From Sporopachydermia quercuum (lineage: Eukaryota; Ascomycota; Sporopachydermiomycetes; Sporopachydermiales; Sporopachydermiaceae), in contig BCGN01000001.1 in the NCBI GenBank assembly GCA_001599295.1, forward strand, positions 310,001 to 374,000: a stretch of DNA of 64,000 nt, given 5' to 3'. A program made the translations under genes and the position numbers. Positions 47,573 through 47,989 of the stretch are shown here, in pieces. The notes under the pieces were generated by a model. It was given only the letters and a program-made list of their open reading frames with translations, was not told where the DNA came from and made no database searches. The stretch's first letter is position 1. Each line of letters opens with the position of its first letter.

Positions 47573-47989
47573 TCAATGGACATGAGCAGTGCCCGTTCCC
47601 GCTTTCGGAGGATAGCTATCTTTACTGGTTCCTAAATGATCATCACAAGTACACCTATCAGAAACAAATGTTAGCCTACACTGGTTTACTGAGAGCTGAA
47701 TCTCCAAACAAACCTCTTAAAGCATTCATTCCATCAATTTGATTTCCTCAAACTCGTCACACGATTAACTTACCATTCAGATTTAGGAGTTATGTCCATA
47801 ACTCTGGCAATATGATTTCCACAACCAGTCCAACTTTTCTTATCTACGAAAATAAATGACGTTAGTATACAATATATCTAATTGAATAGCTGCCGATTCT
47901 TTTCTCTTGTAATCATAAGGGTTTCAAATAATGGCCAATTTGGGGTGTCAATACTTACTACAAATAGGACAAATAGATGTTTGACACAT
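47573..47989 (-). CDS. Three-exon gene for a 60-residue Cys-rich zinc-finger-like protein
   Basis: Found by reading splice signals; its exons are too short to stand out alone. Exon 1 is 47959-47989 (ATG at 47989), exon 2 is 47774-47843 and exon 3 is 47573-47654 with TGA. Intron 1 (115 nt) starts GTAAGT, has a perfect TACTAAC (47861-47867) and ends TAG. Intron 2 (119 nt) starts GTAAGT, has GGCTAAC and ends TAG. Coding length is 183 nt, 60 residues plus stop, with phases joining exactly. The protein starts MCQTSICPICNKKSWTGCG, so C2, C7, C10 and C18 are followed by H21 and later C35-x-C37 in EWCTC; it ends with a YPPKAGTGTA tail. The C-x2-C-x-K-x-S/T-W-x-GCG-x-H pattern is that of a small conserved family in fungi and bacteria with unknown function. 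Metal binding is inferred from Cys/His spacing. Confidence 0.88.

Follow-up and report, generated by a model that had tools for sequence, protein, structure and literature searches.

The closest described counterparts of the gene family reported here are two bacterial sulfur gene sets, the cst operon of Staphylococcus aureus (PMC5480029) and the PDO-TauE-RHOD-CsoR genes of Streptomyces coelicolor (PMC7533328). As given in the available parts of these papers, both sets overlap the neighbourhood of the family in bacteria, and the CstR and ScCsoR circuits share with the bacterial family loci the repressor cysteines (Cys31/Cys60 in CstR, PMC5480029; Cys37/Cys66 in ScCsoR, PMC7533328) and the ATACC-N6-GGTAT operator. 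ScCsoR binds ATACCn6GGTAT and lets go of it in polysulfide, and the available part of that paper describes the S. coelicolor circuit with four genes (PDO, TauE, RHOD, and a CsoR-like regulator), mentioning no small Cys-rich protein (PMC7533328). The C(P)XCG zinc finger micro-proteins of Haloferax volcanii are, in the portions of the reports at hand (PMC6562870, PMC11241148), likewise shorter than 70 residues, Cys-rich, single-domain, and stress-linked. Unlike these proteins, which have two motifs, the family described below has one C-x2-C, a GCG-x-H, and a C-x-C or later His, and is thus set apart by description; a second C(P)XCG motif was sought in the product of our locus and none was found. 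MymT, the copper metallothionein of mycobacteria, is also small and Cys-rich and under CsoR-family control; compared with it by description, the neighbours and repressor type of the family point to persulfide, not copper.

The present locus lies in the window, that is, the whole 64-kb stretch of Sporopachydermia quercuum DNA that was analysed, in an interval that looks empty when single reading frames are considered. It illustrates that short multi-exon genes can hide in seemingly empty yeast intervals and can be recovered through distant homology.

A three-exon gene model and its support

The computed gene occupies 47989–47573 of the window on the minus strand. The earlier note had proposed three exons joined exactly in phase across two introns with GTAAGT donors, the first with a TACTAAC box, and this model turned out to be exact on the minus strand. 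Exon 1 (47959..47989, 31 nt) starts with the ATG at 47989 and encodes residues 1–10 plus the first base of codon 11. Intron 1 (47844..47958, 115 nt, phase 1, GTAAGT...TAG) contains the TACTAAC branch-point consensus, read directly, at 47861..47867, 17 nt before the intron end. Exon 2 (47774..47843, 70 nt), which carries W-x-GCG-x-H, is followed by intron 2 (47655..47773, 119 nt, GTAAGT...TAG) with a CTAAC branch-point-like site, also read directly, at 47670..47674, and exon 3 (47573..47654) supplies the last bases of codon 34, C35-x-C37, a YPPK tail, and the stop TGA, all these features being on the minus strand. The joined frame encodes the 60-residue product MCQTSICPICNKKSWTGCGNHIARVMDITPKSEWCTCDDHLGTSKDSYPPKAGTGTAHVH.

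Spliced models were enumerated on both strands of the window with donors GT[AG][AT]GT, acceptors [CT]AG, one or two introns of 45–250 nt, and products of 45–120 aa, which gave 48 distinct products. Six of them reached E <= 10 with a profile built from 59 bacterial members, all starting at 47989, and the same start was common to all six models that matched a profile of 43 fungal members (E <= 10). The proposed junctions scored best of the 48 with both profiles (E 3.6e-18 and 3.1e-23, respectively). For intron 2, ten other acceptors within 270 nt likewise leave the product open, thus the choice of the 119-nt intron rests on homology, not on sequence signals alone. Using the spliced product in tblastn, matches were obtained in actinobacterial plasmid DNA (best E 2e-6, 44% identity).

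The own genome (16.39 Mb in 12 contigs, the window being on contig 1) contains a second family locus at C2:1022723 (G000:C2:1022576-1022860, corresponding to 1354–1638 of the fetched locus L124), the product of which is MCKPATCDTCGGATWWGCGSHIPAAMTAAPKDKWCTCLYPDGSKQEFPPKQGTGVKA. To give this product, the paralogue needs one 111-nt intron, which matches intron 1 of the window gene in codon and phase; it lacks the second intron and has G in place of K12. The earlier note had looked to conserved intron positions in related yeasts for support, and this held for intron 1, in the paralogue and, by the evidence given below, presumably in other fungi. Possible splice sites are abundant in low-GC intergenic DNA, and a chance splice of non-coding sequence has to be weighed on this account; set against the profile scores, the paralogue with the shared intron, and the homologues in other fungi, its probability is negligible. 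On these comparisons, we regard the 47989–47573 locus as a genuine gene that is spliced and encodes a microprotein of 60 residues.

Family members, conserved residues, and predicted fold

The note had placed the family in both fungi and bacteria, and homologues were indeed found in the two groups. A DNA pattern search matched at least 120 loci; the titles of the 120 listed name 117 Actinobacteria, two Acidobacteria, and one Thermoflexus MAG, and Streptomyces appears in none of them. From 117 of the pattern loci, 124 members were kept, four matches with no start or stop in the locus being dropped. Counted by genomes, the family is present in at least 36 of 296 Actinomycetota (the phylum of Arthrobacter), at least 5 of 201 in the phylum of Thermoflexus, and at least 7 of 199 in that of the Acidobacteria, all lower bounds with only the best candidates scored. 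A profile search counted 2623 bacterial-type protein clusters, of which 120 were listed, and nearly every homologue name shown is “hypothetical,” “uncharacterized,” or “unnamed.” The spliced product was expected to hit proteins sharing C-x2-C ... W-x-GCG-x-H, and the homologues do share it; in protein searches they were found via alignments, either with the bacterial members or with the paralogue plus two composites. As a single sequence the product found nothing in the protein search, too few exact words being shared.

The window product has the full family signature, that is, an M-C start, C7-x2-C10, W15-x-GCG-x-H21, C35, and C37. C2, C7, C10, W15, GCG, H21, and C35 were invariant in 120/120 listed bacterial and 43/43 full-length fungal homologues, a count drawn from database matches that were not bound by the DNA pattern. 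C37 is Cys in all 43 full-length fungal and in 106 of the 120 listed bacterial homologues; where it is absent, a His lies no more than three residues further on in 13 of the 14 listed database matches and in 51 of 51 pattern members (C-x-G-H in 47, C-x-G-x-H in three, and C-x-x-x-H in one). Such a Cys/His substitution is more readily explained if the residue binds a metal than if it is a thiol that carries sulfur. Of the eight patterned Cys/His positions claimed previously, the pattern itself stood and the number did not, as seven are conserved (C2, C7, C10, C18, H21, C35, and C37); the conserved tail was borne out as Y/F-P-P in fungi.

The statement that the family has no assigned role agrees with all further searches. 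Searched up to E 10, the window product had no match in Pfam or NCBIfam, and 59 bacterial members gave scattered weak matches to these collections (best E 0.0034), no single family being matched by more than three of the 59. No family match was obtained in the sequence search of the PDB, tblastn against phages gave weak scattered matches (best E 0.02, to an unannotated record), and literature searches in one open-access library turned up no report of this family or of a connection between it and sulfur.

The AF2 model of the Dipodascopsis protein (95 rows, pLDDT 89) has strands at residues 3–6 and 13–16 and a helix at 22–26, and a bacterial family member was modelled at pLDDT 74. The fold class weighed for the family was the treble clef zinc finger, for which a zinc knuckle, a hairpin, and a helix with two ligands around a bound zinc would be expected. 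Neither model matched a PDB fold in Foldseek and VIA; the sole Foldseek row for the better model was the small zinc finger YacG (1lv3), which at E 8.3 is not significant. Apart from the Cys core, a C-terminal amphipathic tail is seen, FFxRLFGR-like in bacteria and SWLxxxFGG-like in some longer fungal members (P0122, P0144), and it is possibly a membrane or partner anchor. Based on the predicted hairpin and helix, the family could be read as a small zinc-finger adaptor or regulator that binds a protein or nucleic acid in sulfur stress and docks or anchors through this tail. The aromatic/basic tail motif ends 89 of the 120 listed bacterial matches and a similar tail occurs in some fungal members above 62 aa, but 42 of the 124 members are shorter than 48 aa and have no room for a tail; we consider such an adaptor unlikely. 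Several bacterial loci of 6–8 kb contain two or three family genes (L018, L020, L022, L032, L080, and L084).

Fungal homologues and a probably old intron

The profile search with the paralogue and two composites in the alignment gave 69 mostly fungal clusters. All organism-named ones among them are fungal, with no function named, and the highest identity among the named fungal homologues, 58%, belongs to Dipodascopsis tothii. Forty-three of the 69 are full-length, and the other 26, which do not have the full N-terminal block, were left out of the residue counts: seven have no block and 19 enter the W-x-GCG block from non-homologous sequence. In 19/19 of these read-through ORFs, which include near-copies (e.g., P0166/P0172 and P0175/P0176), position 12 is preceded by D, E, G, or A. 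The codons of these residues start with G, which fits an AG acceptor read through in phase 1. Exon 1 is kept in nine of the 19, and in 9/9 C10 is followed by G, S, R, or C, as the four NGT codons would give at a phase-1 GT donor. From the 19 ORFs we infer that intron 1 is shared, in phase 1, by other fungi. P0168 is the same as the Umbelopsis protein P0137 (Mucoromycota) except for the insert, suggesting that intron 1 is probably older than the split of the Umbelopsis lineage from the Ascomycota.

In a tree of 168 rows and 42 columns, the 44 fungal rows, including both sequences of this genome, lie on one side of a branch (97/88) and are placed among bacterial, mostly actinobacterial, sequences. 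With few columns, unsettled bootstrap, and no root, the direction of transfer cannot be read from this tree. The window gene has the features of the fungal branch, intron 1 at codon 11 in phase 1 and the Y/F-P-P tail. The tree pairs the paralogue with the unnamed metagenomic sequence P0132, and two old types of yeast paralogues may exist.

Linkage to persulfide-clearance genes in bacteria

Genes neighbouring the family were called by codon scoring and the clusters were named from one representative each; longest-ORF calling was rejected for the false frames it produced in GC-rich DNA. In the 117 loci, the neighbours included a DUF156/CsoR-like repressor (39), CoA-disulfide reductase with a rhodanese domain (22), rhodanese (22), thioredoxin (21), a metallo-beta-lactamase/rhodanese protein of the persulfide-dioxygenase kind (18), and TauE (16), and gene order and strand suggest that many family genes sit in operons. 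Five core genes were defined, the CstR-type repressor, the persulfide-dioxygenase-like protein, CoA-disulfide reductase, rhodanese, and TauE. Of the 72 full windows in the discovery set, 44 had at least one of them (65 of 124 when truncated windows are included), a figure that is circular. Linkage was tested by running profiles from the discovery clusters on windows of 1.5 kb on either side of the family gene in 29 independent loci, which were the best-scoring ones of the Actinomycetota genome search rather than a random sample of its matches and from which one locus shared with the discovery set was left out. At least one core gene was present in 13/29 loci versus 6/240 control tiles (Fisher p 2.8e-10), and at least two in 9/29 versus 0/240. 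The 240 control tiles, each 3.2 kb, came from 40 stretches taken in 20 of the 36 genomes where the family had been matched, and in all six positive tiles only the CoA-disulfide reductase profile gave a match. Thioredoxin, a common neighbour in the discovery loci, was seen in 0/29 independent loci, and core genes were near the family in 3/8 loci of the Thermoflexus phylum and 0/7 of the Acidobacteria phylum. In bacteria, family genes frequently belong to CstR-type sulfane-sulfur gene sets. This link to persulfide-clearance genes is new here and gives an orphan family its first testable role. DUF302 proteins also recur near the family (L107, L112, L116, L011, and L076), in the first three loci together with a CstR-like repressor nearby, and they may belong to persulfide clusters too.

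TusA is the sulfur carrier in other sulfur systems, and the frequency of rhodanese-domain and dioxygenase-like partners, together with the five invariant Cys and a C37 kept in most members, would suit a carrier whose thiols, not a metal, matter and which takes persulfide sulfur from a rhodanese or CoA-persulfide to the persulfide dioxygenase. A carrier thiol, however, would not allow the replacement of C37 by a nearby His seen above, and the invariant His, Gly, and Trp look structural; we consider such a carrier improbable.

The nearby repressors are of the CstR type. Their first Cys is present in 40/40 and the second, 29 positions on, in 39/40 (one gap), matching the Cys31/Cys60 pair, and at the position in the alignment that we take to be that of the copper-site His, a His occurs in 0/40 (one a gap). 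This bears on a further alternative, according to which the protein is a copper-responsive, metallothionein-like one under a CsoR/RicR-type repressor and its sulfur neighbours are incidental. A Cys-rich microprotein under RicR does exist in mycobacteria, but in addition to the repressors lacking the copper His, no copper family was seen among the top 25 of the 120 Pfam families identified in neighbours of unlinked members, 96 of the 102 listed neighbours being covered.

A CstR-type operator upstream of family genes

A CsoR/CstR-type palindrome, the candidate operator, was tested as TACCCC-N2-GGGGTA. When one mismatch was allowed, 48 of the 124 members had it no more than 160 bp upstream, namely 23 of the 65 members with core neighbours and 25 of the 59 without, where the latter class includes loci cut short, such as L027, beside which L228 shows a CstR-like gene. 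When spacing was left free and an upstream stretch of 100 bp or more was required, it preceded 50/122 family genes and 38/133 core genes and thioredoxins versus 26/662 other neighbouring genes and 0/122 shuffles. It was also upstream in 5/29 independent loci, while none was found in 800 kb of control DNA and in 15 loci of the Thermoflexus and Acidobacteria phyla (0/15). Core neighbours, operator, or both were seen in 56 of the 72 full windows and neither in 16; among the independent loci 15/29 had neither.

Across 11 Actinomycetota genomes, two genomes from outside this phylum being left out, the perfect palindrome occurs 29 times and a reversed control pattern not once. Ten of the 29 sites precede a family gene by no more than 160 bp, and four others by 1.7–3.7 kb. 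In the eight genomes drawn before the operator idea arose, 11/22 perfect sites are placed in this way. Of the three genomes included later, two were chosen for the site at their family gene (L027, L109), and the third, Corynebacterium gallinarum, had 0/3 so placed. The three perfect sites of Arthrobacter sp. Bz4 are upstream of its two family genes and ahead of its dioxygenase gene, the last one inside a TauE-rhodanese-dioxygenase cluster. For the 29 sites, 19 operator-centred loci were fetched, 14 of which hold a family or core gene and five neither; these five perfect operators have no such gene within ~1.5 kb (L218, L220, L222, L225, and L227).

The tested palindrome has the same form as the ScCsoR site ATACC-N6-GGTAT. 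According to the available part of the S. coelicolor report, that site is close to the copper CsoR and RicR sites (PMC7533328), so the operator alone cannot separate CstR from CsoR, and this likeness speaks for copper control. The surroundings of the operator do not, as the P-type ATPase signature DKTGT was in none of the 19 operator-centred loci, most of which contain family or sulfur core genes. Considering the repressors, the neighbours, and these loci together, regulation by copper is very unlikely.

Proposed role of the microprotein

The reading that we favour, and hold to be probable though far from certain, is that of a persulfide-induced zinc-thiolate microprotein in a CstR-type regulon, the fungal copy having the same chemistry with no CstR. 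The seven conserved Cys/His side chains would in all likelihood coordinate one or two zinc ions within a small knuckle-hairpin-helix fold. In Actinomycetota, where the family was most often found here, the gene would commonly belong to the persulfide regulon: on build-up of per- or polysulfide, the dithiol repressor would be modified and leave its ATACC-N6-GGTAT operator, and the microprotein would be made together with persulfide dioxygenase, rhodanese, CoA-disulfide/persulfide reductase, and sulfite exporter. It could then keep zinc and thiolates functional during sulfane-sulfur stress, its zinc-thiolate site either taking up sulfane sulfur or releasing and buffering zinc, and thus acting as acceptor, buffer, or switch for a partner. 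Sulfide elicits a zinc-limitation response in Staphylococcus aureus, as reported in the available part of PMC5480029, which makes a zinc-linked role reasonable. That the family was found in only 36 of the 296 Actinomycetota genomes mentioned above, a lower bound, indicates that it is not essential to the persulfide system.

The computations establish the gene structure, the family, its conserved residues, the linkage in bacteria, and the operators; we infer persulfide induction, metal binding, the biochemical action, and their carry-over to fungi, and the role of the yeast gene would follow by homology only. Fungi would represent one branch of the family with an old intron, and the yeast copy would probably have kept the chemistry without CstR. 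A wider proposal, which is possible but doubtful, would make the family a zinc-thiolate microprotein class not recognised before and a core persulfide effector of actinobacteria, which was passed once to an early fungal ancestor, gained the intron shared by Mucoromycota and Ascomycota, and gave fungi an unlooked-for persulfide/zinc activity. The assignment to a regulon makes the function of the family directly testable, and if it is true in fungi, the protein would be an added component of eukaryotic persulfide or zinc homeostasis.

Genomic surroundings in S. quercuum

A ZIP zinc transporter gene lies tail-to-tail with the paralogue, 139 bp apart (L124 1778 onward, minus strand), and the C-terminal part of an ABCB/Atm1-like half transporter ends 0.9 kb before it (L124 up to 460, plus strand); being one instance in a eukaryote, these neighbours prove nothing. 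A further pattern match in this genome, G000:C4:917033, was taken as a chance hit, being another frame of a long membrane-protein-like ORF, and a Pyr_redox_2 search of the genome gave 11 matches. No tRNA genes were found in the 64-kb window. CTG read as leucine fits 3/3 CTG positions of a pyruvate decarboxylase gene compared with the solved enzyme (partners V, L, and L), and a GAS-type glucanosyltransferase and an MRC1 domain protein were also identified, which together suggest an ascomycete yeast. Over 1–64000, which includes 29 N bases, long ORFs are sparse (27 of at least 100 aa from ATG, several of them nested), and the window may hold other hidden short spliced genes.
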